DNA of 64,000 bases from Cohaesibacter sp. ES.047 (GTDB taxonomy: Bacteria > Pseudomonadota > Alphaproteobacteria > Rhizobiales > Cohaesibacteraceae). Positions within the stretch are counted from its first letter, which is position 1, and each line of letters starts with the position of its first letter. A program made the translations under genes and the position numbers. Shown here in pieces: positions 47,189 to 64,000 of the stretch. A model generated the notes under the pieces. That model was not told the DNA's origin and ran no database searches. It saw only the letters and a list, made by a program, of their open reading frames with translations. Where the stretch lies: contig NZ_LT907844.1 in assembly GCF_900215505.1 (NCBI RefSeq), positions 372,001 to 436,000 of the forward strand. Direction: 5' to 3'.

Positions 47189-48277
47189 TCAAAGACGCGC
47201 GCCACCTGTGCTAAACAGCAGGCAATCAGAGCCGCTGATGGACAGATCCAGATTGTCATCCGGCCTGATCGGCGTGGTCATGCCGCGCATTTCGATGGTC
47301 AGGGCATTCTCGCGGCCCGTATCGGTATAGACGTAGGAGACGCCCCCCAGTTTTTCGATCACGGCGCATTTCACCGTGAAATTCGCTTCGCCCGGTTCGG
47401 TATCGAAATGTTCGGGCCGAATACCGATGCGCACGTCCGGTGGCAACTGCGCCGAACGATCGCGCGGCATCACCGCCAGATTTTCCACCCCCAGCTCCGG
47501 GACAGAGACAAGGGCCGCGCCATTGTCTGCCCGTCCGGTGACCTTTGCGCCGATGATGTTCATCTTGGGGGAGCCGATGAAGCTGGCAACGAAGACATTG
47601 TCCGGATTGCTGTATAGCTCGTCCGGCGTTCCGATCTGTTCCACGCAGCCATCGCGCAAGACCACGATACGGGACGCAAGGGTCATGGCCTCAACCTGAT
47701 CATGGGTCACATAAACCATGGTTGCACCAAGCTCGGCATGCAGGCGGGCAATCTCGAGGCGCATCTGAACCCGCAATTCGGCATCAAGGTTGGACAGCGG
47801 TTCATCAAACAGGAAGATCTTGGGCTCCCTGACGATGGCCCGGCCGATCGCCACGCGTTGACGCTGCCCACCGGACAGAGCCTTTGGCTTGCGCTTGAGA
47901 TAGAGCTCCAGCTGCAGGGTTTCCGCGGCCTTCTTGACCAGCGCCGTGCGCTTCGTCTTGTCGATGCCGGCCATTTCCAGACCAAAGGCCATGTTTTGTT
48001 CGACCGTCATGTGCGGATAAAGGGCATAGGTCTGAAAGACCATCGCAATGCCGCGGTCGGACGGCTCCTTTTTGGTGACGTCTTCACCATCAATGACGAC
48101 CGCTCCCGACGTGACCGTTTCAAGCCCGGCAATCAGGCGCAGGAGTGTTGACTTGCCGCAGCCGGAGGGGCCGACGAAGACGACAAATTCGCCGCTCTTG
48201 ACCTCAAGATCCACCGACCGGATGACTTCGGTCTTCTCGAATTTCTTGACGACTTTTTTGAGTTCCAGATTAGCCAT
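47189..48277 (-). CDS. Sugar ABC transporter ATPase (UgpC/MalK type)
   Basis: A 362-residue CUT1-family ATPase. Walker A is GPSGCGKSTLL, the signature LSGGQRQRVAIGRA and Walker B KIFLFDEPLSNLD; the C-terminal TOBE/OB regulatory domain follows from about 235. It drives uptake through the two permeases encoded upstream. It begins 29 bp after the MalG-type permease gene. Confidence 0.92.
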   Translation of the reverse strand: MANLELKKVVKKFEKTEVIRSVDLEVKSGEFVVFVGPSGCGKSTLLRLIAGLETVTSGAVVIDGEDVTKKEPSDRGIAMVFQTYALYPHMTVEQNMAFGLEMAGIDKTKRTALVKKAAETLQLELYLKRKPKALSGGQRQRVAIGRAIVREPKIFLFDEPLSNLDAELRVQMRLEIARLHAELGATMVYVTHDQVEAMTLASRIVVLRDGCVEQIGTPDELYSNPDNVFVASFIGSPKMNIIGAKVTGRADNGAALVSVPELGVENLAVMPRDRSAQLPPDVRIGIRPEHFDTEPGEANFTVKCAVIEKLGGVSYVYTDTGRENALTIEMRGMTTPIRPDDNLDLSISGSDCLLFSTGGARL

Positions 48278-48306
48278 GAATAAGTCCAGTATGATTCAAG
48301 AATGCA

Positions 48307-49134
48307 TCACTTGACTGCGCCTTCCGTCAGGCCGGCAACAAACCAGCGACCGATCAGGGCGAACAGAAGGATGACGGGAAGCGTTGCAAAGCTGGCCCCT
48401 GCGAGGAGAAGGCCCCAGTCGATTTGATATTGCCCGATGATGCCGGAAAAGCCGACGGGCACCGTCCGGTTGGCATCCGAAAGAATGATCACCGAGGTGA
48501 AGACATATTCGGTCCAGGCGGATACAAACGCGAAAATGCCGACACTGGCAATGCCCGGAGCGATCAAGGGGATCATGATCCGGCGCAGGATGATCAGGGG
48601 CGGCGCACCGTCCATGATGGCGGCTTCCTCGATTTCCAAGGGGACTGAGCTGAAGAAGGAGCGCAGCATCCAGATCGAAAAGGGCAAGGCAAAGGTGACG
48701 TTGACCACCACCAATGCGGTTCTGGTGTCGATCAGGCCAAGTTTTGCAAACATGCCGAACAGCGGGATCAGCACGACGATGCTGGGAAAGGCATAGGCGA
48801 GCAGGATGATCCGAAACAGCGTCTCCCGCCCCGGAAATTTGAGGCGGAAGAACGCATATGCAGCGGGGACTGCAAGCAAAAGGGTGATGAGTGTCGAGAA
48901 GGTCGCCACCGAGATCGAGTTGACCATGTAGGTCATGTAATCGGACTGGTTCAAGAGCTTCTGGTAATGCTGAAGCGAGAAGGTATTCGGAACCATCGTC
49001 GGTACACGCGCAATGATTTCTTGTGGCGACTTCACAGATCCGCTGACCACCCACCAGAAGGGCATAAGGATCAGGGCGAGAAAGAAGAAAATCACCAGCG
49101 CCAGTACGACATTCCATAAAAGTGAGCGCTTCAT
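48307..49134 (-). CDS. Sugar ABC transporter permease (MalG type)
   Basis: A 275-residue inner-membrane permease with six helices and the docking loop EEAAIMDGAPPLIILRRIMIP. Its start overlaps the stop of the MalF-type gene by four bases (ATGA). Confidence 0.92.
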   Translation of the reverse strand: MKRSLLWNVVLALVIFFFLALILMPFWWVVSGSVKSPQEIIARVPTMVPNTFSLQHYQKLLNQSDYMTYMVNSISVATFSTLITLLLAVPAAYAFFRLKFPGRETLFRIILLAYAFPSIVVLIPLFGMFAKLGLIDTRTALVVVNVTFALPFSIWMLRSFFSSVPLEIEEAAIMDGAPPLIILRRIMIPLIAPGIASVGIFAFVSAWTEYVFTSVIILSDANRTVPVGFSGIIGQYQIDWGLLLAGASFATLPVILLFALIGRWFVAGLTEGAVK

Positions 49135-50006
49135 CGGCTTTCTCCCGCATCCGCCAGAGACCTCGTGGCAAAGAGGGCAAAGATCATGAGAATGATGGTG
49201 GCAAGCACGGCAACTGCCGAGGCTTCACTGAGGCGATAGCCCTTGAAGGCGGTTTCATAGATCAACACCGGCAGGGTGCGCGTGCCGCCAGCAGGGCCAC
49301 CACTGGTGAGCAGCCAGATGATGTCAAAGACGTTGAACGACAGAAGCGTGCCGATCACCAGCAACACCCCGAGAGTGGGAGCCAGAAGCGGCCATGTGAT
49401 GCGGGTGAACCGTTTGACAGCTCCGGCCCCGTCAATGCGGGCTGCCTCATAGAGATCGCCCGGGATGCGCGTCAGGCCCGCCAGCATCATCAGCGCGATA
49501 AACGGGAACCAGCGCCAGGAATTGATGAAAATGAGTGTCGACATCGCGGTTTCTGGTGTGGCGAAGAAGCCAACCGGCCGATCGATGATCCCCAGTTGCA
49601 TGAGCATCGGGTTGATCATGCCGCCGGAGGTGGAAAACAACCAGCGCCAGATCATCACGACCACGACGGTCGGCACGATCCAGGTCAGGATGATCCAGGT
49701 CCGGGCAACACGGACGCCCGGGAATTTCTGATTGAGAACCAGCGCCGCAGCCAGAGCCAGAAGGGTCTGGAGAGCGGCATTGGCCAGAACCCAGACCAGG
49801 CTGAGCCAGCTGGCGCTCCAGAACTTGGTTCCGCTGATGATTTTCTCATAGTTCGCAAGGCCCACCCAATGACCTTCCGATCCAATGGTCCGCACATCCT
49901 GCAAACTGAGGATGATGGCGGAGATCAGCGGCCATCCGAGAATGGCCGCCAATACGATGAACGCCGGTCCGACAAACAGCGCGGCATATAGTCGAGAGTG
50001 TCGCAT
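49131..50006 (-). CDS. Sugar ABC transporter permease (MalF type)
   Basis: A 291-residue inner-membrane permease partner of the MalG-type protein. The docking loop YEAARIDGAGAVKRFTRITW is clear. It begins 32 bp after the binding-protein gene and overlaps the next permease gene. Confidence 0.92.
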   Translation of the reverse strand: MRHSRLYAALFVGPAFIVLAAILGWPLISAIILSLQDVRTIGSEGHWVGLANYEKIISGTKFWSASWLSLVWVLANAALQTLLALAAALVLNQKFPGVRVARTWIILTWIVPTVVVVMIWRWLFSTSGGMINPMLMQLGIIDRPVGFFATPETAMSTLIFINSWRWFPFIALMMLAGLTRIPGDLYEAARIDGAGAVKRFTRITWPLLAPTLGVLLVIGTLLSFNVFDIIWLLTSGGPAGGTRTLPVLIYETAFKGYRLSEASAVAVLATIILMIFALFATRSLADAGESR

Positions 50007-50038
50007 CCAGCGCTCCTTTGTTGCCTACTGTTTGTTGC

Positions 50039-51316
50039 TTACTGCGAAACGTCTTTCATGTGCGCCTGACCCGCAGCGACGGCTTCGGCAGGCGACATGC
50101 CATTGACGGTGATATTCTGCAGCGTCTCGGCGATGAGGTTCTGTGCCGAAATCGCAGCAATGGCGGGGAAGACACGTCCGCTGGTGAAGCCAAACAGCTT
50201 GCCGTTTTTCGAGTTTTCGATCACGGTTTCAATCTGCGACTTGTATTTCTGGACGGTCGGATCCTGCCAGAAGCTCTCAGCCTTTGCACCATCTGCAGTC
50301 AACGGCATGAAGAGGCCCGGTTCCATGTTCAGCAACCGGCCATAATTTTCCGGCTCAAGCATGAAGCTGACGAACTTCTTGGAGGCTTCAGCCTTTGCCT
50401 CATCCGTGGAGAGCATCATCACGGCGTTCGGATAGGCGATGGTTGCATGCTCGTCCTGATCGGCGGCATGAGGAATCGCGGCAACGCCGAGATCGGATGC
50501 ATCGCCATCGGTCTGGGTGTCATAGGTCGAGATCACCGTGAACTGCATGACCATGCCGCAACTGTTGGCCGCGAAACAGGCTTCCGCTTCGCCCCAGGTC
50601 CAGGACGGGCTGTCCGGCGGGGAGAGTTTCTGCAGGTTGGCATAATAGTCATAGGCGGCAACCGTCTTTGGATTGTCAAAGCGCAGAGAGCCGTCTTCGT
50701 TGTAGATCTCGGACGCCCCGCCATTGACCATGACCGAATAGACAGTCTGGTCGGTGTAGAGCTGCTTGTTGGCCGGCAGCCCGATGCCATACATGCCATC
50801 CTTGCTCAGGGCCTTGGCTGCGGCGGTCCATTCTTCCCATGTTTTGGGAACCTCGATGCCGGCCTTCTCGAAGACGCTTTTGCGATACCACAGGTTCATC
50901 GACTGGTTATAGAGCGGAACCGCCCATGTGCCGTTGTCATAGGTATAGGCTTCGACCGCGCTATCGATGAAGTCGTGTTTCTCGTCGAGCTCCTTGACGA
51001 GATCGGACACATCGGCGAGCGCGCCAATATCCTTGAGAATGGGCGTGAAGTCCGGGATTGCAAACAGCATGTCCGGACCGGCTCCCGCCGCCAGTGCTGC
51101 CGGGGCCTTGGCGTAGATTTCGCCCCAGTTCTGCGGTTCCTGTTTGACGACGATTTCAGGATTGGCCTCGTTGAAGGCATCGATCAATTCCTGAATGCGC
51201 GCCACACGCTGCGGGGGTTGTTCCATGTGCCAAACGGTGACTTCGACCGGATCTGCCAGTGTTGCCACGGGAGCCAACAATGTGGCTCCGGCCAGTAGTG
51301 CCATTAATCTCTTCAT
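50039..51316 (-). CDS. Sugar-binding periplasmic protein (family 1)
   Basis: A 425-residue extracellular solute-binding protein. The signal peptide MKRLMALLAGATLLAPVATL is followed by VEVTVWHMEQPP, typical of family 1 sugar receptors. The ATG at 51316 with AGAGGGAA ahead is chosen. It is followed by two permease genes and preceded by a SIS protein gene and a GntR/UTRA regulator gene. An amino sugar or its oligomer is the likely ligand, from context. Confidence 0.9.
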   Translation of the reverse strand: MKRLMALLAGATLLAPVATLADPVEVTVWHMEQPPQRVARIQELIDAFNEANPEIVVKQEPQNWGEIYAKAPAALAAGAGPDMLFAIPDFTPILKDIGALADVSDLVKELDEKHDFIDSAVEAYTYDNGTWAVPLYNQSMNLWYRKSVFEKAGIEVPKTWEEWTAAAKALSKDGMYGIGLPANKQLYTDQTVYSVMVNGGASEIYNEDGSLRFDNPKTVAAYDYYANLQKLSPPDSPSWTWGEAEACFAANSCGMVMQFTVISTYDTQTDGDASDLGVAAIPHAADQDEHATIAYPNAVMMLSTDEAKAEASKKFVSFMLEPENYGRLLNMEPGLFMPLTADGAKAESFWQDPTVQKYKSQIETVIENSKNGKLFGFTSGRVFPAIAAISAQNLIAETLQNITVNGMSPAEAVAAGQAHMKDVSQ

Positions 51317-51365
51317 GTTGATGTTCCCTCTTTGGTGGAGATGTCGTGCCTTGTTATTATTGCTT

Positions 51366-52094
51366 TTATAGGTGGGGGTTTCGCGCTCTGTAGCGCTCAA
51401 CCAGTTTCTGGTTTATTTCCTTCGCGCCGGGCATGTTCGCGCTCAGGTAAATTGGTGCATCGCCATCGGATGCAAGCTGGGTCGCCACTTCAACGAAGAT
51501 GGCATTGAGGATGGTCATGCCGATTGCCGTGGACACTGGCCCCACCTTGAGTGCCGATCCGGGGATCGACATGATGGCATCCCCCGGAGGTGCGCCATTG
51601 TCGATGACGATGTCGGCAAGGTCGGCAAGGCGCTGGCGGCCATTGGCAGACGCAGTGGAATAATCGAGCGAGGTCAGACCGATCACCGTGCAGCCGATGT
51701 CCCGGCCGATGCGGGCGGCCTCGATGGGAGCGGCATTGACGCCCGAATTCGAAATGACGACGAGGACGTCATCGGGCTGGATGTTGTAGCGCTCGAAGAT
51801 CGGCGACACGATCCCCTCAAGGCGCTCGTATTTCGTTCCGGCAATGGCGCCTTCATGGATCATGGTCGGCGCTGCGAGAATGGGCACCGTGATTGCCAGA
51901 CCGCCTGCCCGATAGTGCATTTCCTCGGCCATCATGTGTGAATGACCGGTACCGAAGATGTAGATGCGGCCATCGGACCGTGCCGATTTCACAATAGCGT
52001 CCGCTGCCGCTTTCATGGCAGGCTCTGTGGCGCTCTTGAGAGCGGTCAATCGGTCGATCAGGGCATCGAAATAGCCATCGGTCATATTTGTCAT
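51366..52094 (-). CDS. SIS-domain phosphosugar-binding protein (UPF0309 type)
   Basis: A 242-residue cytoplasmic protein with one SIS fold. [16 protein letters not shown] and [18 protein letters not shown] carry the phosphosugar-binding Ser-rich loops. Relatives include isomerases and etherases such as MurQ-like proteins, but the motif set here is closer to UPF0309 proteins of unknown function. Its start overlaps the upstream regulator's stop by four bases, and the binding-protein gene follows after 49 bp. A role on a phosphorylated amino sugar is likely but unproven. Confidence 0.85.
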
Positions 52095-52831
52095 TGGTTC
52101 TTGGGGGATCCTAGTGTGAGATTGACTTTCATGGCGAAGCTGTCACCACGATAGAATGAACGGACATATTCGAAGGGTTCACCTTGGGCATCGAAAGTGA
52201 GGCGGGTCAGCTTCAAAAGCGCCTCTCCTGCCTTGATCTGCAAGGTGCGTGCGACATCGGGGGACGCTTGTGCGGCTTCGAGCACCTGTTCAGCCGTCGT
52301 CGGCACAATGTCGAAGCTTGCGCGTAAAATAGAGTATAGGGACTCGTGCGAGAAATCGGCCTTGTCCAATAGACCCGGCGCAACATCTGCGCGCACTTCC
52401 GTGGTCTCGATGGCCAGCGGCTTGCCATCCACCAGCCGAACGCGAACAAGGCGGTGGACCTGAGCGGTCTGGGTCAGTTTCAGGGCTGCAGCGCAGGCAT
52501 TGTCCGCTTGCGACAGGCTCGAACTGATGACGATGCTGGAAAGCTCATAGCCCAGCGGCTCCATCTGTTCGCTGAAGCCGGTCAATGTTGTCAGGGTTTG
52601 CTGAATCTGCGGCTGGCCCACAAAGGTGCCATGCCCTGTCCGGGTGACCAGAATGCCTTTTGCCGTCAGTTCGCGCATGGCCTGACGGGCCGTCATGCGC
52701 GAGATACCGAATTGCTCCGCCAGCACACGCTCGGACGGCAGCTTGTCACCCTCTTTCAATTTTCCAGAGGTGATGTCCGCTTCCAGAGAGGTCGCGATCT
52801 GCCTGTAGATCGGTTGCTCGGCTTCGGCCAT
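52091..52831 (-). CDS. GntR-family regulator with UTRA domain (importer operon)
   Basis: A 246-residue transcription factor. The winged HTH covers about 10-75 ([20 protein letters not shown]), and a UTRA effector domain follows. The ATG at 52831 is chosen; an upstream TTG would run through the operator. It starts the operon that includes the SIS protein and the sugar ABC importer, and the palindrome at 52879 is about 50 bp upstream of its start, suggesting autoregulation. Confidence 0.87.
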
Positions 52832-52878
52832 GGACAGTTTCCTATTATGGTTCCTATGATGGTCTATTCCGGTTTGTA

Positions 52879-52896
52879 AATTGGTATAGTCCAATT
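52879..52896. promoter_or_regulatory. Palindromic operator, NagQ/NagR-like
   Basis: AATTGGTATAGTCCAATT has perfect six-base arms (AATTGG/CCAATT) around TATAGT. Its TTGGT-TA-CCAA pattern resembles operators of GntR/UTRA regulators of amino-sugar genes. It lies in the promoter of the GntR-SIS-importer operon. Confidence 0.65.
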
Positions 52897-52954
52897 AGTA
52901 GACATCACGATCCGGCGATCTGTCAAGACAGGTTCGTCAGAAAAAAGCAGGGCA

Positions 52955-54454
52955 TCAGCCTCGAAGCAGTTTTTGTCGCACATTCGCAAATGTTGCCCGA
53001 GCGTCTGCGTAGGCTGAGGCCCGGGCGAGATCCGGATCATGCTGGCGATCCAAGTCCTCGGTGGGGAAAGCAGCCTCGCGTACCGAAGAGAAATCGCCCA
53101 GTGCCGTGGCAAGGATCAGCGCGGCGCCCTTGGCTCCGAATTCGGATCCCGAGGGAACGAGCACGCGCTTGCCGATGACATCCGCAATCATCTGCGACCA
53201 GAAGCGGCTCTGGCTTCCACCGCCGGTGAGGCGGATCTCCGCGCCTTCAAAGCCCAGCAGATCGATAAGATCGGCCAGAGCAAAGGCCACCCCTTCAAAC
53301 ACGGCCCGCAACATGTGGGCGCGGGTGTGAATGGGAGAAAGCCCGGCGAACTGCGCTCTGGCGTTCGGATCAACCACCGGCGCGATGATGCCGCTCTGGC
53401 TGAGGTAGGGCAGATAGACCACGCCTTCAGCCCCGATCGGGATCGCTTCAACCATCCTGGTGACCTGATCAAACACATCAGGCCTCTCTTTGATGTCCGG
53501 GGCAAGCGCATCCAGCGCCCAGTCGAGATTGAGCGTTCCGGCAACGTTGACCATGGCACGATACCAGCAGTCACCGGGGATCGAGAACAGCAAGCCCAGA
53601 TCCTTTGGTTCGAACACCGGCTCCCTGTGGCACATGCCAACCATACAGGTGGTACCGAGCACGGCGGTGACCTGTCCGGGGGCCAAACCGCCCACGCCGG
53701 TGACGGTGCAAGGCACATCCCCCGCTCCAATCGCCACGGGCAGTCCTTCGGGCAATCCGGTCTGTTTGGCCACCAGCCGACTGAGGCCGCCTGCGATGCT
53801 CTCAGAATTACGAACCGGCGGGAAACGGTGGGCATGGTCGATGAGACCGAATTTGGCGATCATTGCGTCGCTGCGAGACCGGGTTCGGGCATCGCCCGGG
53901 ATCACCGAAGCCTCGCTGCGATCGGTCGCAATCTCGCCGGTCAGGCGAAAGCGGATGAAATCCTTGTAGCTGATGACATGTGCCACCTTTTTGAGGAAGT
54001 CAGGTTGGTTCTCGTTGAACCATGCAACAACGGGCAAGGTGCAGCCCTGTTGCAGTACCGATCCCGAAGAGAGAAAGATCTCGGACATGAAATCGGGATT
54101 GTCCCCTTCCATTCGGTCGAGCACCGACTGGCTCCGGCTGTCTTCCCAATTGATGCCGGGGCGCAAGACATTGCCCACTTCGTCCAGAAACCATGCACCG
54201 ATCATGGCGGCAGACAGGCCGATTCCGCGTATTTCAGTGGCATCAATGCCTGCATCGGCGACCACGTCGCGTATGACCTTGAGCACGGCATTCCAGGATT
54301 GTTCCGGATCCATCTCGCACCAGCTCGGTTGCGGCCGACTGAGCGGCGTGCGTTGGCGCGCCAAACCGCACAGCGCGCCGGTCTCGTCAAACAGCGCCGC
54401 CTTGCACAGGGACGACCCGGCATCAATGCCCAGAAGATAGCCTTTGCCGATCAT
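52955..54454 (-). CDS. FGGY-family carbohydrate kinase
   Basis: A 499-residue sugar kinase with the two-domain FGGY fold. The first phosphate-binding motif is GIDAGSSLCKAALFDE, the second-domain motif AVLGTTCMVG and the adenosine motif LTGGGSQSRFWSQMIADV. Family members phosphorylate xylulose, glycerol, gluconate and related sugars. Here the gene overlaps nagA by four bases, in an operon with a SIS isomerase and no ROK- or BadF-type amino-sugar kinase. It may therefore phosphorylate the amino sugar itself, which would be unusual. It is the last gene of its operon. Confidence 0.87.
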   Translation of the reverse strand: MIGKGYLLGIDAGSSLCKAALFDETGALCGLARQRTPLSRPQPSWCEMDPEQSWNAVLKVIRDVVADAGIDATEIRGIGLSAAMIGAWFLDEVGNVLRPGINWEDSRSQSVLDRMEGDNPDFMSEIFLSSGSVLQQGCTLPVVAWFNENQPDFLKKVAHVISYKDFIRFRLTGEIATDRSEASVIPGDARTRSRSDAMIAKFGLIDHAHRFPPVRNSESIAGGLSRLVAKQTGLPEGLPVAIGAGDVPCTVTGVGGLAPGQVTAVLGTTCMVGMCHREPVFEPKDLGLLFSIPGDCWYRAMVNVAGTLNLDWALDALAPDIKERPDVFDQVTRMVEAIPIGAEGVVYLPYLSQSGIIAPVVDPNARAQFAGLSPIHTRAHMLRAVFEGVAFALADLIDLLGFEGAEIRLTGGGSQSRFWSQMIADVIGKRVLVPSGSEFGAKGAALILATALGDFSSVREAAFPTEDLDRQHDPDLARASAYADARATFANVRQKLLRG

Positions 54455-55632
54455 GCCGCCTCCGATGCACTGCGCCCACCAAGCCAGGTCTGCTTGACCT
54501 GCAAGTCATAATCCAGATGCACCAGATCGGCGCGCAGGCCAACCGAAAGGCGCCCCCGGTCCTCAAGTCGCAGATAGTCTGCCGGATAGGCGGTGGCCAT
54601 GCGCAAGGCCTCGGCGAGATCAAGCTCGAGATAGGCAACGCCAAAACGAACCGCGGACGCCATGTCGAGATCCGATCCGGCAAGCGTGCCGTCTTCCAGC
54701 GTCAGCCTTGGACAGAAGCCGGATCGTGAGCGGTATATGGTGCGCCCGTTGAGCTGCAATCTGTCCTCCTCTTGCCCCACCAGAGACATGGAATCGGTCA
54801 CGAAGAAAAGTTTGCCCTGTCCATGAGCCTTGGACCGGATGGCGATCCTGAGCGCGGCCGGATCGACATGGTGACCATCGGCGATAATGCCCGCCCATGC
54901 CATCGGGCTGTCAAGCGCCGCACCGACCAGTCCGGGTGCCCGATGGGACAGGCCACTCATGGCGTTGAACAGATGGGTCACACCCCGGGCACCGGCCCGG
55001 AACAGCCGCGTCGCCGTGTCGGCATCCGTGTCCGAATGACCGATGGAGACGAGCACGCCCGCCTCGTTTAGGGCAGTGACCTGATCGGGGGTGACTTGCT
55101 CGGCGGCAACGGTCAGCAGAAGGCGCCCCGCGCTTGAGGCGGCTTCCGAGTAGAGCGTCACATCGGCATCCGTTAAGGGGCGCATGTATTTGGCCAGATG
55201 CGTACCTTTGCGGGCAGGTGCCAGATGCGGCCCTTCCAGATGCAGTCCGGCAACGCCCCGACCGGCGAGGACCGCTTGTGGCTTTGCCGCGATCGCCCGG
55301 TCACGCAGGGCATCCGCATCGGTGATCAGGGTGGGCATGATGGATGTCGTGCCGAATGTGCGATGGCCATTGAGGATGGCATACATCGTCTCGGGCGACG
55401 GATCGTCGTTGAGCATCACGCCGCCACCGCCGTTCACCTGTGCATCGATGAAACCGGGTGCCAGAAGTCCGCCATCCAGCCGGATGGTTTCGATATCCTC
55501 TCGGGAACCTTCGGCATAGTCAGACATCGGCACGACCGCCATAATGCGGTCGGCGTCCAGAACGAGCGCGTGATCCTCCAGAAAGGACGTCCCGTCAAAA
55601 AGGCGTGCACCAACCAGCGCTGTCTTTGCCAT
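54451..55632 (-). CDS. nagA: N-acetylglucosamine-6-phosphate deacetylase
   Basis: A 393-residue amidohydrolase removing the acetyl group from N-acetylglucosamine-6-phosphate or a relative. The metal-binding Glu is in LHLEGPHLAP, His residues in SIGHSD and THLFNAM, and the catalytic Asp in FVTDSM. The ATG at 55632 shares its A with the stop of the upstream SIS gene (TGATG), and its own stop overlaps the kinase start. The position in the operon supports amino-sugar catabolism. Confidence 0.92.
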   Translation of the reverse strand: MAKTALVGARLFDGTSFLEDHALVLDADRIMAVVPMSDYAEGSREDIETIRLDGGLLAPGFIDAQVNGGGGVMLNDDPSPETMYAILNGHRTFGTTSIMPTLITDADALRDRAIAAKPQAVLAGRGVAGLHLEGPHLAPARKGTHLAKYMRPLTDADVTLYSEAASSAGRLLLTVAAEQVTPDQVTALNEAGVLVSIGHSDTDADTATRLFRAGARGVTHLFNAMSGLSHRAPGLVGAALDSPMAWAGIIADGHHVDPAALRIAIRSKAHGQGKLFFVTDSMSLVGQEEDRLQLNGRTIYRSRSGFCPRLTLEDGTLAGSDLDMASAVRFGVAYLELDLAEALRMATAYPADYLRLEDRGRLSVGLRADLVHLDYDLQVKQTWLGGRSASEAA

Positions 55633-56660
55633 CACATTGTTTCCGTCACTTTTTTCAGATGAGCAGGCTTGTCCGGATCGAAGCCGAGCTTACGTGTCAC
55701 CGCTTCGATCATGCGGTAGTAGGGCAGAAGGCTGACCAACGGATCGATGAGCCCACAACCGGTCGAGGGAACGACCACCGGGCAGGAGCCGAGCGCCTCG
55801 CTCGAGAAGACCGCCGTCTGGGCTCCCATGGCTTCAAATTTTTCAACCGCCTGACAGCCAAGATCGAAGGCCGTATCCTTCTGCACATAGGCAATCACCG
55901 GAAAGCCCTTGTGCACGAGGCGGGCGGGGCCGTGCATTACCTCTGCACTGGAAAAGCCCTCGGCATGAAGACCCGCCGTTTCCTTGGCCTTGAGCGCTGA
56001 TTCATAGGCGACCCCGACACCGGGGCCGCGGCCGCAGACAAACAGGCTTTCAGCGGAGACCAACATTTCGCTAAGCGGGTCGACATCGACGGAACCGGCT
56101 TTCTCAAGAGTTTCGGGCAGTGCCCTGACGCCTTTGAGAAGAGCAGCATCGTTCGAGGCCACCGCAGCAACCCAGGCAAGGGCTGCCGCCGAGCCAATGA
56201 AGCTCTTGGTCGCAGCAACGCTGAGTTCAGGTCCGGCTCCAAGCGGAATGACGATATCCGCCTCTCGACCGATCGGACTGTCTGGCACATTGACGATGGC
56301 TACCGTGCGCGCGCCGCCCGCTTTGGCTGCGGCCTGCAAGGCAACAATATCGGGGCTGGCCCCCGATTGGGATACGGTGAAGTGAATGGCCGAGCGAAGC
56401 TTGAGCGGAGCCTTGTAGACCGAGGCAACCGATGGGCCGATGGAGGCGGTTGGAATGCCTGCACAGGTTTCAATCAGGTATTTGAAAAAGGTGGAGGCAT
56501 GATCAGAAGACCCCCGAGCCGCAAGGCTGATCACCGGTGGCGGATCCTGTCGGAACCAGCGCCCGATGGTGTCCAGATTGGCAGATTGATTTTGCAAAAG
56601 ATGCGCGACCACTTCAGGAGAGTGATTGGCTTCGCGCAGCATCAGGCTTTGATCAGACAT
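55632..56660 (-). CDS. Double-SIS isomerase/deaminase (GlmS-isomerase-like, AgaS/NagB-II type)
   Basis: A 342-residue protein with two SIS domains, like the isomerase half of GlmS without the glutaminase part. SLAARGSSDHAS, FTVSQSGASPDI and FVCGRGPGVGVAYESALKAKE are the conserved phosphosugar motifs. Such proteins deaminate glucosamine- or galactosamine-6-phosphate, replacing NagB. No classical NagB gene is present. The ATG at 56660 is four bases after the regulator's stop, and an earlier in-frame ATG would overlap that gene. Confidence 0.88.
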   Translation of the reverse strand: MSDQSLMLREANHSPEVVAHLLQNQSANLDTIGRWFRQDPPPVISLAARGSSDHASTFFKYLIETCAGIPTASIGPSVASVYKAPLKLRSAIHFTVSQSGASPDIVALQAAAKAGGARTVAIVNVPDSPIGREADIVIPLGAGPELSVAATKSFIGSAAALAWVAAVASNDAALLKGVRALPETLEKAGSVDVDPLSEMLVSAESLFVCGRGPGVGVAYESALKAKETAGLHAEGFSSAEVMHGPARLVHKGFPVIAYVQKDTAFDLGCQAVEKFEAMGAQTAVFSSEALGSCPVVVPSTGCGLIDPLVSLLPYYRMIEAVTRKLGFDPDKPAHLKKVTETM

Positions 56661-56664
56661 GAGG

Positions 56665-57432
56665 TCAGTTTTCCAATGTAAGTTCAGCGACGAACTCGAA
56701 GCTGTCGCTGCGGTAGTATGAGCGGGTGAATTCAATCACCCGCTTCTCGGCGCCGAAGCTGGTCCGGTTGATCTGCAGACAGGGTTCGCCTGCCTTCGCC
56801 TCCAGCAACTCGGCAACAAAGGCATCCAGCGAAGCGGCACTGATGCGCTGGGTGGCATGCAGCGGACGGTTGCCATTGCGCGTCAGCGCTTCATAGAGAG
56901 ATTGTGTCTCGTCGAATTCCGGGCCGACCATTTCATGGCGCACCACGGCACTTTCGAGCGCCACCGGCTGACCATCGACAAGGCGCAACCGATCGAGCCG
57001 CAACATGACAGTATCCTTGAGCACTTCAAAGAGACGCATTTCATAGTCGGTCGGGACCGCTTCTTCGCGGCGTATAATCCGCGACTCGGGCAACAGTCCT
57101 CGCGCTGACATGTCTTCAGAAAAGGAGGTCAGTCCACTAAGGGGCTGCTCGATTCGCGGTTTTGCTCCAGCAACGAAGGTGCCCGACCCTTGCCTGACTT
57201 CGAGAATGCCCGCTTCGATCAGCTCCTTGTAGGCATTGCGCACCGTAATGCGGCCCACATTCAATCGCTTGGCCAGATCGCGTTCCGGCGGCAAGGCACT
57301 GCCAACCAGCAGGTCTTTGCGATTGATCAGACTTTTGATTGCTTCGGCCAGTTGGCGATAAATCGGTCCCTGAGATTCGGTGACGGAAAACCCCATCGCC
57401 TGAAGCCGGTCTGGTAGATTGGATCTCAACAT
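56665..57432 (-). CDS. GntR-family regulator with UTRA domain (NagR-like)
   Basis: A 255-residue transcription factor with an HTH at about 20-85 (LPPERDLAKRLNVGRITVRN) and a UTRA domain. It heads the operon with the double-SIS protein, nagA and the FGGY kinase, and is distinct from the GntR/UTRA gene at 52091. It likely represses the operon until an amino-sugar phosphate binds. The ATG at 57432 is preferred to an earlier start that would span the candidate operator. Confidence 0.88.
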   Translation of the reverse strand: MLRSNLPDRLQAMGFSVTESQGPIYRQLAEAIKSLINRKDLLVGSALPPERDLAKRLNVGRITVRNAYKELIEAGILEVRQGSGTFVAGAKPRIEQPLSGLTSFSEDMSARGLLPESRIIRREEAVPTDYEMRLFEVLKDTVMLRLDRLRLVDGQPVALESAVVRHEMVGPEFDETQSLYEALTRNGNRPLHATQRISAASLDAFVAELLEAKAGEPCLQINRTSFGAEKRVIEFTRSYYRSDSFEFVAELTLEN

Positions 57433-57435
57433 AGA

Positions 57436-57453
57436 TCCAATATAGCACCAATT
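57436..57453. promoter_or_regulatory. Candidate operator upstream of the NagR-like gene
   Basis: Read leftward, AATTGGTGCTATATTGGA shares AATTGGT and a central TATA with the site at 52879 but lacks the matching right arm. It abuts the chosen start codon. Confidence 0.35.
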
Positions 57454-57713
57454 GAATGAATTGTACAAGGCCCGTTTTAAACAGGCCCCAGCCGATGTGC
57501 ACGGCAAGCTTGCCAAACGGTCTTTTCCAACCGCTTAACATGATCCCTTTGTCCTACTCGGCCCGGGATGCCTTGTTTTGTTCAATGTTGCCTTGCATTC
57601 TCCCACGCAGCTATTTCACTGTGCTGTGTGAGGGACGCTTAGCATCATCTCGGGCACTGACTTGAACGCCGCAGGGATCGACCGCACAGCGCCAGAATCA
57701 GAAGGGGAGCATC

Positions 57714-59676: not shown

Positions 59677-60933
59677 CTAGAAGCTCGTGATGATGTGGTT
59701 GAGGACCGAGACTGGCCGGCTTTGCGCGGCCTCCTCATTCCAGATCAGGGTCTGGACCAGTTCCGGCGCATCGGGGATGTCAAAGGTCTGCACTTCGCTT
59801 AGGAGTTCAAGCAGTCCCTGCGACGGCAACAGCGAAATGAAGGCCTCCTGCCGCGTCATGGATGCCAAAATGGTGATAGAATCCACTTCGATCGTCTCCT
59901 GCGGATCAAGCTCCTGGGTCTGTAGCCACTCGTCGACGAGGGTCCGCAGACCGGTGTCGCGACCGGGAAGTACAAAGCATCGCTTTTGCATCAGTTCCTT
60001 CAGGGCTGCCTTGGGCAGAAGGCCGTTTTCGGCTTGCGCGTGAATATTGGTTCCGGCCAGTTTGAGCCGATAGCGGCGCAGAACCCGCGCGGAAAACCCA
60101 TAAGGGATGCGCGGGCTGTCGACGATGGCGGCATGCAGCTCATGGTTCTTCAGCTCGGCCATCAATTGATTGCAGCTTGCGGTGCTAATGCGCACCTGTC
60201 CCATCGGATCGATCCGCTGCCACGCTCCGCAAATCTTGGCGATCATCGTGCATAGATAGCTCCGTGTTTCAAGCGGTGGGATGGAGCCGATCTTGACCGA
60301 CTTCACGTCTCGCATGAACAACAGGTCCCCGCGCCTGATGTTGCGTTCGCAAATCGCGTTGAGCGCCCCGGCACCCGCATAGAAAATGTCGGCAGATCGC
60401 AAGGGCCGGAGCCCCCGGGTTCCACGCTCAAACAGTCTGGTGCCCAGGATCTTCTCGATCTGCGCGATCTGGCGACTGAGCTGCGGCTGGGCGATGCCTA
60501 GCGCGACGGCAGCGCTGTTGATGCTGCCATGTTCATAGACGGCAATGAAGCGAAAGATCAGTTTGGGGGACAGGCGCAGGCGACGCCATTCTTCAAGCTG
60601 AGCATCAAGACTGTCATCGAGCTTCATCAGGCATTCCGTGCGCGACTCCAGTTCCGACATGGAGATGGGGACATTGTCCTCGCCAAAAGCATTTTCGATG
60701 CGCGACAGCCCGCCCAACAACAGCATGGCAAAAAACAGAACGGAATTGCTGCCCACGGCTGGCAGGTTGCCTTTGCGGGTTTTGAGGAAAAGGGACGTGT
60801 TCAATTGGTCTTCAAGGCGTGTGATGGCGGCGATGACCGTCGTCACGGACAGGCCCATTTCCCGCGCGGCGGCGCTTGCGCTGCCTGTCTTGCGGGAATA
60901 GACGAATGCCACTAGAGACCTGATATCAAACAA
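59677..60933 (-). CDS. LysR-family regulator with two predicted HTH domains
   Basis: A 418-residue protein, over 100 residues longer than usual LysR regulators. Residues 1-60 form one LysR-type HTH (SASAAAREMGLSVTTVIAAI), then about 60 residues with a hydrophobic patch. Residues 123-180 form a second LysR-type HTH (SINSAAVALGIAQPQLSRQI with LGTRLFERGTRGL). The rest is a LysR effector-binding domain. The gene is divergent from the HAL-like lyase gene, 60 bp apart, with a 12-base palindrome in the gap, suggesting control of that gene. The duplicated HTH is unusual for the family. Confidence 0.85.
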   Translation of the reverse strand: MFDIRSLVAFVYSRKTGSASAAAREMGLSVTTVIAAITRLEDQLNTSLFLKTRKGNLPAVGSNSVLFFAMLLLGGLSRIENAFGEDNVPISMSELESRTECLMKLDDSLDAQLEEWRRLRLSPKLIFRFIAVYEHGSINSAAVALGIAQPQLSRQIAQIEKILGTRLFERGTRGLRPLRSADIFYAGAGALNAICERNIRRGDLLFMRDVKSVKIGSIPPLETRSYLCTMIAKICGAWQRIDPMGQVRISTASCNQLMAELKNHELHAAIVDSPRIPYGFSARVLRRYRLKLAGTNIHAQAENGLLPKAALKELMQKRCFVLPGRDTGLRTLVDEWLQTQELDPQETIEVDSITILASMTRQEAFISLLPSQGLLELLSEVQTFDIPDAPELVQTLIWNEEAAQSRPVSVLNHIITSF

Positions 60934-60948
60934 GGAACCTATCTTCCC

Positions 60949-60960
60949 ACGTAATTACGT
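60949..60960. promoter_or_regulatory. 12-bp palindrome in the LysR/lyase divergent promoter
   Basis: ACGTAATTACGT is a perfect palindrome located 15 bp upstream of the LysR gene start and 33 bp upstream of the lyase start. It is the best candidate operator in this 60-bp gap. Confidence 0.5.
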
Positions 60961-60993
60961 ATAATCATTTCAGTTTTTTGTATACCACAACTG

Positions 60994-62631
60994 ATGGAGC
61001 GAACGGCTAATATTATTCCCTCCAGTGCATTAAGAGAAAAAGCAGCCGTGAACAGCCCCTTTCCAGCCATCCCTTCTGATATTGAAACAACACGTCCCCA
61101 AGCCCCGGCACAGCCCATCATGGTGGATGGCCGGTCGCTGACCATTGGGCAATTGGAGACCATCGCCCACAGGCGCGGTCAGATCATGACCTGCCCCATC
61201 GCCCTCAGTCAGGTCGAAAAGGCCCGGCATGCCGTGGAGCAAGCGGTGGAGAATGGCACAGCCGCTTATGGCGTGACCACATCCGTTGGGGCCTACAAGG
61301 ATTGCGTTGTCAACGCCAACAGCATGCATGACTTCAACATGCGCCTGTTGCGTGCGCATAGTTTTGCCATCGGGACACCGCTGCCGGTGGAGGACGTCAG
61401 GGCCGCCATTGCGCTGCGGATCAATGCGTCCTTGACCGGCCATGCTGGCATCCACCCCGAATTGCTGATCGCCTTGCATAACCTGCTTGAGCGGGACGTC
61501 ATACCCGAAGTTCGGCCCATCGGGTCCCTCGGCTGCGCCGATATCGGCCTAATGGGGCAGATCGGGGCGGCTCTTGTCGGCGAGGGCTTTGCCTATGTGG
61601 ACGGAGAAAGACGTCCCGCCCTTGAGGCTCTGGCGCGGGCTGGGTTGGTTCCCTATCGGCCACAAAGCAAAGAGGGCCTTGTGCTGGTTAGCAGCAATGC
61701 CACGTCTGTGGCTCGGGCGGCCCTGCTGCTGGCCAAGGCCTATCGCCTCTTTTACGTCTCCATTGCGGTGCTGGGGCTATCCAGTGCGGGCTTTTCTGCC
61801 AGCCGCCAGCCGTGGCTTGCCGCCAAGCATACGGAAAGCGGTCTTATTCCCGACCTTGCCGATTTTGCGCTCTCGTCCTTTGCTGCGGACAAATGGAGCG
61901 CATCCTCGCGGGTTCATGATCCGCTCTCCTATCGCTGCGCGGTGCAGGTATCGGGGACCGCGCTTGAGGCGCTCGTGCACGCCAGCCGCGTTGCGCGCGA
62001 GTCCATGAACAACAGCGACGACAATCCGGTCGTGGTGGATGGTGCCCTCATCACGTCGGGCCGTTCTCTGCCGCAGCGCCTGACATTGGCGCTCGAAAAT
62101 CTCCAGCTCAACATCGGCCACCTCAGTCGCAGCATGCTCAACCGCATCATTGCGCTCGGGCGCTGCGAATTGACGGGGCTTGCGCGCAATCTCACGCCAC
62201 ATGACGGCTCGGTTTTGGCCTTCGGCCCGCCGGTCAAGCAAGCGGTCGATCTGTTCGCCTCCATCGCGGATGACAGTTCACCGGCATCGCTCGTCAATGT
62301 GACGGTCGCGGACGGCATGGAAGATGAAGAGACCTTCTTGCCGCTGATCACCAGAAAGCTGGAAAGGCAGCTCGACCTTTGGGGCAAGTTGATCGCCCAC
62401 GAGGCCTTCGTTGCGCGACAAGCGGTCTATTTGCGCCGTCTGGATGGTCAGCTCAACGGGCTGGCAGGCGCGATCCTGACACGGCTTGAGAAAGAACTTT
62501 TGCCGATTGACGATGACCGCATCTATACCCTCGACTTCATCGCGGCCGAGCGGTTGCTGATCAATGACCAATGGATCGATCATCTTGCGCAGACCTATGC
62601 GTTCCCGATCTGGGAAGAAGGACGTCGGTGA
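60994..62631 (+). CDS. Divergent HAL/PAL-family aromatic amino acid lyase-like protein
   Basis: A 545-residue member of the histidine/phenylalanine ammonia-lyase superfamily. Recognisable are the N-terminal Tyr loop AAYGVTTSVGAYKD (Tyr at about 92), EGLVLVSSNATSVARAAL, DPLSYRCAVQVSG and NNSDDNPVVVDG. However, the triad Ala-Ser-Gly that cyclises to the MIO cofactor in HutH (after GSVG) reads Cys-Ala-Asp here (GSLG-CAD-IGLMG, codons 61534-61542). The enzyme may not form MIO, or may have a different activity. It should not be called HutH on sequence alone. It is divergent from the double-HTH LysR-type gene; no strong ribosome-binding site precedes ATG 60994. Confidence 0.82.
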   Translation: MERTANIIPSSALREKAAVNSPFPAIPSDIETTRPQAPAQPIMVDGRSLTIGQLETIAHRRGQIMTCPIALSQVEKARHAVEQAVENGTAAYGVTTSVGAYKDCVVNANSMHDFNMRLLRAHSFAIGTPLPVEDVRAAIALRINASLTGHAGIHPELLIALHNLLERDVIPEVRPIGSLGCADIGLMGQIGAALVGEGFAYVDGERRPALEALARAGLVPYRPQSKEGLVLVSSNATSVARAALLLAKAYRLFYVSIAVLGLSSAGFSASRQPWLAAKHTESGLIPDLADFALSSFAADKWSASSRVHDPLSYRCAVQVSGTALEALVHASRVARESMNNSDDNPVVVDGALITSGRSLPQRLTLALENLQLNIGHLSRSMLNRIIALGRCELTGLARNLTPHDGSVLAFGPPVKQAVDLFASIADDSSPASLVNVTVADGMEDEETFLPLITRKLERQLDLWGKLIAHEAFVARQAVYLRRLDGQLNGLAGAILTRLEKELLPIDDDRIYTLDFIAAERLLINDQWIDHLAQTYAFPIWEEGRR

Positions 62632-62658
62632 TCGGATCGCCATTGAAACGGCTGTTCG

Positions 62659-64000
62659 TCACTCCGTCGCCAACTCGATCCCGTGCTTTTTGCAGAAAGC
62701 GAGCATTGCGCTGGAAAGGTGCAATGCGGGTAGCTCCTTCGTCTCGGTCGGCTTGCCATATACCGCCGTTGCCAGCCAATGGTCACCCGCCTCCAACATG
62801 CCATAGAAACGCGGGAAAAGCGTCCGGGGATAGCGGATGTTGGTGTTGGGGGATGCCCGAAGGATCGCGCCGGATCGCTTGGCCAGCAGATCAACAAGGG
62901 CCGATGTTGCGTCCGGTGTCCGAATGATCACCCGTCCGGCCTCTTCAACCAGCCCGTCTGCAAAGCCCGGCCTCTTCTCATCGGTCCGATCAACCGAAAA
63001 GCCGCTTTCACCGATGTAGACATCAGCCTCGTTGGTAATCCGGTGCAGCCTTACGTGCCATCCTTCGGAGGCGAAATCCAGCCAGCTCTCAACCCGCAAC
63101 CGATCACACGGCTGCCAGACACCATAGACCAAGCCTTCCTTGATGCCGGCTTCAAGGATATGCCCCCGCGACATCCAGCACGTCCCGTCAAAGGAGGCCA
63201 TCATGCCGCTGTCCACTGCGGAGCGGTCTGCATAATCCGGCGATGTTGCGTCGCTCTTGACGGAAAAGGCGAAGGCGGATGAATAGGCAAACCGGCCATA
63301 TTTTGCATCATAGACCCGATGCTCATGGCCATCCTGCCCGCCCATCAACAGAACCGAATCCCCTTCAGATCGCCGAATGGCAAACCCCGCAGCAGGCGCA
63401 AGGATTGTTTCGCCCGTTGCTGGCGGCAAGGCCTCTTCTTCTGCAGCCCAGAAGGGATGGTCTTCAGGCAAGGCCAGAACCAGGAATGTCTTCAGCGCCC
63501 AATAGGGGGAGCCCGGCGCATTATAGGCTTCGCTCATGAAGAGGTTCGGATAGACATAGCCGATGCTCATGACGCCATCCCGCTCGGTGAACGGCTGCTC
63601 GGACCACCAGCGCAAATGGCGCAGCAGTTGCCCCTTCATCTGCCCCCATGGCAGCACCTCCTCTCCGGCAAAGGCGCACCCCGCCCAGAAGGCCCCTTGC
63701 GCGAAGCGATAGGTCAGTGACCGGCCAAAAGGAATGGCTGCGCCATCCTCGGCAAACCAATGCTGGAAATCCTTGGCAAAGAGCCGGGCCCGGTGCCGGT
63801 AGCGTTCGGCATAGTCGGGAAACAGGTCACCGGCCAGCCCGGCCACCATCAGCCCGTAAAAATGAAGCGCCATGGGCAGGTAGTAGTCGCGCTGCGCCCA
63901 CTCACCATCCTTGTAATATCCCTCTCCCAGATAAAAGGTCTCGATCCGGTCCAAGCCCTGACGCACGATTTCCTCCGACCATTCTCGCCCCACCTTGCGC
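62659..64000 (-). CDS. DUF2264 family protein, 3' part
   Basis: At least 446 codons of a DUF2264 protein, open to the right edge of the window. The visible part has the typical YYLPMALHFYGLM, DGAAIPFGRSLTYRFAQGAF and MSEAYNAPGSPYW motifs and many Trp and Tyr residues. The fold is probably an alpha/alpha barrel as in glycan-degrading enzymes, followed by a beta-rich section. Function is unknown. A GTG at 63993 could start a shorter protein, but the frame remains open upstream, so the gene most likely continues beyond the window. It converges on the lyase-like gene with a 27-bp gap. Confidence 0.85.
   Translation of the reverse strand, partial: RKVGREWSEEIVRQGLDRIETFYLGEGYYKDGEWAQRDYYLPMALHFYGLMVAGLAGDLFPDYAERYRHRARLFAKDFQHWFAEDGAAIPFGRSLTYRFAQGAFWAGCAFAGEEVLPWGQMKGQLLRHLRWWSEQPFTERDGVMSIGYVYPNLFMSEAYNAPGSPYWALKTFLVLALPEDHPFWAAEEEALPPATGETILAPAAGFAIRRSEGDSVLLMGGQDGHEHRVYDAKYGRFAYSSAFAFSVKSDATSPDYADRSAVDSGMMASFDGTCWMSRGHILEAGIKEGLVYGVWQPCDRLRVESWLDFASEGWHVRLHRITNEADVYIGESGFSVDRTDEKRPGFADGLVEEAGRVIIRTPDATSALVDLLAKRSGAILRASPNTNIRYPRTLFPRFYGMLEAGDHWLATAVYGKPTETKELPALHLSSAMLAFCKKHGIELATE

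Follow-up and report, generated by a model that had tools for sequence, protein, structure and literature searches.

The window, a stretch of 64,000 nucleotides from the genome of Cohaesibacter sp. ES.047, carries on its plus strand a 545-aa open reading frame (60994..62631) whose product matches the Pfam family PF00221 over residues 49-483 (E 2.5e-83), lacks the MIO-forming triad and is proposed here to be an ergothionase-type trimethylamine lyase. Divergent from it lies the gene of a 418-aa LysR-type regulator that contains two HTH_1 stretches (59677..60933, minus strand). Beyond the LysR gene are uridine-kinase-like and aldo/keto reductase genes, and downstream of the lyase is a DUF2264 gene on the opposite strand. 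A related divergent gene adjoins the lyase in a related Cohaesibacter (51% identity) and in a Celeribacter MAG (39%), and a Thioclava contig ends inside its LysR gene. A candidate LysR operator, an imperfect palindrome of 14 bases within the 60-base gap, was rejected because it is absent from the four related gaps, and a search of 60700-62900 for sigma-70-like promoters found none. Elsewhere in the window, minus-strand genes at 47189-57516 encode an ABC transporter, an FGGY kinase, an amidohydrolase, a SIS-domain protein and two GntR/UTRA regulators. This cluster looks like one for amino-sugar uptake and catabolism, and we saw no link between it and the lyase.

The true start of the lyase may lie further in, for example at the ATG at 61120, because pLDDT stays below 50 over the first 35 residues and the alignable part of the three nearest orthologues begins only at residue 29-42. 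The predicted structure as a whole has a pLDDT of 84.5 and a pTM of 0.87 and is less sure near the active site, with a mean pLDDT of 68-70 for residues 91-110 and values below 50 for residues 440-442. Eight MIO-enzyme models of NCBIfam match the protein, all well under their cut-offs (hutH, 216.2 bits versus 539.15; Tyr mutase, 129.3 versus 501; PAL, 99.9 versus 519.15), and NCBIfam 20.0 returned no specific model for it.

In an alignment of 37 rows, the loop of the window protein reads GSLGC-ADIGLMGQIG, versus GSVGASGDLAPLAHIG in HutH. The corresponding codons, GSLGCADIGLMGQIG (residues 177-191, 61522..61566, plus strand), mark the site of the HutH Ala-Ser-Gly triad. Cys181 aligns with the triad Ala, a one-residue deletion follows, and Asp183 corresponds to the Asp that comes after the triad in HutH. 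The sequence-only reading, according to which Ala-Ser-Gly is replaced by Cys-Ala-Asp, was thus right that the triad is gone and one residue off in register: because Asp183 is the family's own Asp in the alignment, it is Cys-Ala and a gap that replace Ala-Ser-Gly. A scan of genome contigs confirmed 269 loci, and the figures given here rest on the best 80 of these. The aligned proteins from these best 80 loci are all devoid of a GA[S/C/T]GD triad. The suggested check on the conservation of Cys-Ala-Asp gave a C-A/G-D loop in 80/80 of them (78 CAD and 2 CGD), a count that is biased, since GCADIGLM was itself one of the two search patterns; when the count is restricted to the 54 of these loci with the other pattern, it comes to 52 CAD and 2 CGD. 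Furthermore, GCADIGLMGQIG does not vary among four aligned orthologues (72, 36 and 35% identity to the window protein). Judging from these alignments, the loop state of the window protein is not due to chance.

The Treponema ergothionase (GEGDI) has a loop shortened by one residue as well, as does a third group, made up of seven rows (AGD, AAD or ASD). We refer to four rows as ergothionase-type: that of the Treponema enzyme and those of L156, L160 and L162, which are unassayed proteins encoded on plasmids. Since the counterpart of Cys181 is Glu in three of these four rows and Ala in the remaining one, Cys181 is more likely to have a pocket or structural role than to act as a nucleophile.

When the window protein was compared with the PDB using phmmer, the top match was ergothionase (6s7j, 178.7 bits), versus 144.2 bits for the best histidine ammonia-lyase. 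A profile search (343.4 versus 274.2 bits) and a Foldseek search with the predicted model (E 3.7e-28 versus 1.5e-24 for HutH) gave the same order. The model matches 6s7j with TM-scores of 0.82/0.89, but HutH also gave 0.82, so that the two enzymes cannot be told apart by the fold alone. The ergothionase of T. denticola (6s7j/6s7q) and the window protein have in common a PF00221-type fold, a loop one residue shorter than that of HutH and the residues Tyr, Lys, Asp, Ser-x-Asn, Asp, Lys and Glu, whereas the former carries EGD in place of CAD, is 28% identical to the window protein in the structural alignment and belongs to a separate clade. HutH also shares the fold, as well as Tyr92, Asp183 and Glu443; however, the window protein differs from it in the missing triad, the shorter loop, the changed NGTQ motif and a score of 216 bits versus the cut-off of 539. 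Ergothionase is reported to lack MIO and to yield trimethylamine (TMA) and thiourocanic acid (PMC13405746). Given that MIO-less proteins of this fold are already known (PMC13405746), the missing triad alone does not imply new chemistry.

Outside the loop, the earlier claim that other family motifs remain holds for the Tyr of YGVNTGFG (Tyr92) and the Glu of QEDH, with which Glu443 aligns (62320..62322, plus strand), but not for NGTQ, which has become SSNA (Ser233-Ser234-Asn235, 61690..61698, plus strand). The codons YGVTTSVGAYKD (residues 92-103, 61267..61302, plus strand) encode Tyr92, as in HutH, along with Lys102 and Asp103, which are ergothionase-type. Lys415, in the motif AFGPPVK (62236..62238, plus strand), is replaced by Val in all 8 HutH rows compared. 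Indeed, V98, K102, D103, R142, N144, S233, N235, L311, D342, K415 and P450 occur in 15/15 CAD rows and 4/4 ergothionase-type rows and in none of the 8 HutH rows, a count from which the 37th row, the divergent L106:2042-3673, was excluded; R142 and K415 are also present in all 7 rows of the third group. Across the best 80 of the 269 loci, Lys102 is found in 79 (with one Arg), and Asn235, Lys415 and Glu443 are found in all 80; Tyr92 is kept in 34/34 aligned proteins. Tyr92, Lys102, Lys415 and Glu443 are common to the window protein and the Treponema chain, and their conservation makes them candidates for the catalytic residues. Ergothionase reportedly has four catalytic residues, as said in a 2019 abstract.

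In the phylogenetic tree, a single clade (support 100/100) unites the 15 CAD rows, and another (100/100) holds the HutH rows together with the two ACG rows. The CAD and ergothionase-type rows are sisters, with support of 73/67, so that a single origin of the MIO loss is neither shown nor excluded. L106:2042-3673, from Chelativorans multitrophicus, joins the ergothionase-type rows on a very long branch. This lyase-like protein is 25% identical to the window protein and is encoded ~4 kb from a CAD lyase; its loop had no match in the motif search.

We then compared the gene neighbourhoods, using the names thiourocanate hydratase, thiohydantoin desulfurase, ErtD and ErtE as in NCBIfam 20.0. Orthologues of the window gene are the first genes of ert operons: in the Celeribacter MAG (L034, 65% identity) and in Thioclava indica (L035, 68%), ErtD, ErtE, the desulfurase and the hydratase come after the lyase in one run. 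The four ert products of the former score 764.6, 563.8, 597.1 and 1034.3 bits versus NCBIfam cut-offs of 600, 520, 440 and 930, respectively, and those of the latter were assigned by their match to the Celeribacter proteins (66-89% identity). In the related Cohaesibacter (G017, locus L033), the ert genes lie ~13 kb from the lyase on the same contig, and betaine-type ABC transporter genes adjoin the lyase. All three of the closest full-length orthologues (65-73% identity) have the hydratase, the desulfurase and ErtD in the same genome. Within the fetched flank of up to 8 kb, and with identity limits of our own setting, all four ert genes were found at 40 of the best 80 of the 269 loci, three at 16, two at 3 and none at 21; thus, 59/80 have at least two. 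On a Burkholderia arboris plasmid, genes for a thiohydantoin desulfurase and a thiourocanate hydratase that both exceed their cut-offs lie at most 1.5 kb from an EAD-type lyase, which belongs to the other group. The presence of two distinct lyase lineages beside the same downstream enzymes strengthens the case that the members of the CAD clade are trimethylamine lyases.

The 21 loci without ert genes in the flank comprise those of 20 genomes that we searched and the one of G017, which has the desulfurase. Among the 20 genomes, 15 encode a desulfurase over cut-off elsewhere, 2 have it in two or three pieces below the cut-off, 1 has only weak paralogues and 2 have none; a full desulfurase is absent from the C-A/G-D genomes G447, G457 and G462. 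A different role for the loci without nearby ert genes was considered and rejected, given the desulfurase elsewhere in 15/20 of such genomes. At the one such locus that was scanned (L037), the neighbours include Fpg, UbiE, UbiB and CoaBC-type genes. In a second Cohaesibacter genome (G016, contigs C22 and C20), the lyase frame is broken by stops, and ErtE and the thiourocanate hydratase match in separate frames; the breaks could be due to either decay or assembly error.

In a sample of the class, comprising 385 genomes, 17 had a lyase match at E 1e-60 or better. The C-A/G-D loop together with Lys102, Asn235, Lys415 and Glu443 is found in 4 of these, namely the window's own genome, G077, G102 (where the match crosses one TGA) and G324, whereas the other 13 have AGD, AAD, ASD, GSD, EAD, ASG or ACG loops. 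With 4 of 385 genomes, the C-A/G-D family is thus uncommon in this sample. The desulfurase is over cut-off in 3/4 of the C-A/G-D genomes, the exception being the window's own, and in 1 of 47 other genomes, which were hand-picked rather than random (13 with other lyase matches and 34 regardless of lyases). In that one genome, G148, the thiohydantoin desulfurase scores 598.6 bits, and an ASG-type HutH is the sole lyase match at E 1e-60.

The window's genome, a single contig of 5.11 Mb, encodes a separate HutH with the ASG triad, and the genes for HutH and HutU lie near each other (C1:81151-82530 and C1:83536-85131). Unlike in the genomes of the three closest orthologues, the desulfurase, ErtD and the hydratase were not found here: the desulfurase had no match in the contig, the best ErtD-family match reached 199 bits versus the cut-off of 600, and the thiourocanate hydratase model gave 679 bits versus 930, at a HutU-like gene ~1 kb from HutH. 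The betaine-binding protein of the G017 lyase locus also had no match in this genome. Synthesis of ergothioneine or hercynine by the cell itself was considered and rejected, as the EgtD-type histidine methyltransferase (PF10017) had no match in 19/19 genomes searched, the strain's own included. TMA use via the glutamylmethylamide route, of which TIGR03105 is presumably a marker, was likewise not supported, as this model was over cut-off in 1/7 genomes searched, and not in that of the strain.

The window lyase has 17 unique changes in 515 alignment columns, versus 25, 30 and 12 in three near orthologues whose genomes encode the desulfurase and ErtD, and its codon differences from the nearest orthologue are weighted towards the third position (0.258, 0.166 and 0.520 at positions 1, 2 and 3). 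The gene looks maintained, with a full-length frame, marks of constraint and no sign of decay, although a very recent loss of constraint would stay invisible, because the nearest orthologue is far away.

We consider it probable that the window protein is an MIO-less ergothionase-type lyase that eliminates TMA from ergothioneine or its sulfonate. The suggestion of a different lyase, made from the letters alone, is supported by the closest solved structure, which is that of ergothionase, and by the position of the orthologues in ergothioneine-utilisation operons. HutH uses the MIO electrophile to help a poor leaving group depart. Ergothioneine, as a betaine, carries a quaternary trimethylammonium group, a good leaving group that can depart without being activated; hence, MIO would not be needed. 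In the reaction that we envisage, a 1,2-elimination, trimethylamine would leave the alpha carbon of either ergothioneine or its sulfonate, with Tyr92, Lys102, Lys415 and Glu443 acting as acid/base residues in place of the MIO electrophile. Lys102 and Lys415, added to the Tyr92 and Glu443 of the fold, could serve as base, acid or ring-activating groups. The products would be thiourocanate (or its sulfonate) and TMA, and the divergent LysR protein would regulate the lyase. Thiourocanate absorbs near 310 nm, close to the 308 nm of MIO. Since none of the three downstream families that we searched for was found in the strain, the product might be excreted or handled by unknown enzymes. In titles and the starts of abstracts, no paper on a CAD-type lyase appeared among the matches listed, which, with subscription papers mostly out of reach, does not prove absence; we know of no CAD protein that has been assayed.

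Hercynine (histidine betaine) as the substrate is unlikely, yet it would explain why the lyase has been kept without the ert genes searched for: elimination of TMA would yield urocanate, which would enter the strain's own Hut pathway. The closeness of HutH and HutU in this genome is consistent with such an activity, as is the absence of an excess of unique changes (17/515 columns versus 25, 30 and 12). A third point in its favour comes from Paracoccus saliphilus, in which an MIO-less EAD-type lyase directly follows hutI-hutH-hutG-hutU, but the tree places this protein elsewhere, on a long branch of unsure position. Moreover, ert genes accompany the three closest full-length orthologues in their genomes, the key residues are identical, and hercynine would have to come from outside, given that PF10017 had no match in the 19/19 genomes searched. 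If hercynine were nevertheless the substrate, an MIO-less lyase and an MIO-dependent HutH would give the same product from a betaine and a free amino acid in one cell, and the Paracoccus saliphilus gene located after the hut operon would represent another such case, independent of the first.

It is rather improbable that the gene is a relict, that is, the intact first gene of a pathway the rest of which was recently lost, active in vitro and with no present role. The desulfurase, ErtD, the thiourocanate hydratase and the betaine-binding protein are indeed not found in the one-contig genome, and the interrupted lyase frame of G016 makes a decay of the system in the genus possible. However, the breaks in G016 could be assembly errors, and the window gene has a full-length frame, has kept its key residues, shows a third-position bias typical of constraint and still adjoins the LysR gene. 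The sequence-only reading had allowed for a mutase or a binding/scaffold protein. Both a non-catalytic binding or scaffolding role and an aminomutase in which Cys serves as another electrophile are very improbable: although the triad is missing and Cys181 is kept in 80/80 of the best 80 of 269 loci, Lys102, Lys415 and Glu443 are present in 79-80 of the same 80 and Tyr92 in 34/34 proteins, the aminomutase models give 129 bits versus cut-offs of 501 and 800, and the orthologue operons would call for a lyase as the first step, for which the window gene's orthologue appears to be the only candidate seen.

Several other lyases were met in the comparison. The Paracoccus saliphilus protein (L162:5803-7614), encoded on a plasmid directly after hutI-hutH-hutG-hutU, is an MIO-less lyase with a GEAD loop and is a candidate for a lyase of hercynine or another histidine-betaine that feeds the Hut pathway. 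MIO-less lyases with GAAD or GAGD loops are encoded beside ornithine cyclodeaminase-family genes (L157, L158 and L160), in one case also beside genes for a flavin-dependent oxidoreductase and an ABC transporter (L158), and perhaps belong to a different, unnamed pathway. Two Cohaesibacter genomes carry a HutH-like paralogue with an Ala-Cys-Gly triad (L164:8124-9737 and L165:6614-8227), located ~1.3 kb from an ErtD-type gene; the ErtD-type products are 58 and 59% identical to the ErtD of the Celeribacter MAG, with that of L164 scoring 728 bits versus the cut-off of 600.

The ergothionase-type reading, applied to the strain itself, leaves an orphan lyase, which raises the question of what the cell would gain from the first step alone. 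In five annotated plasmid records, MIO-less proteins carry the names 'histidine ammonia-lyase', 'aromatic amino acid lyase' or 'aromatic amino acid ammonia-lyase'. A sequence rule based on a loop one residue short together with Lys102, Asn235 and Lys415 could tell true ammonia lyases apart from probable trimethylamine lyases, and such a rule would mend predictions of nitrogen and sulfur catabolism in Alphaproteobacteria.
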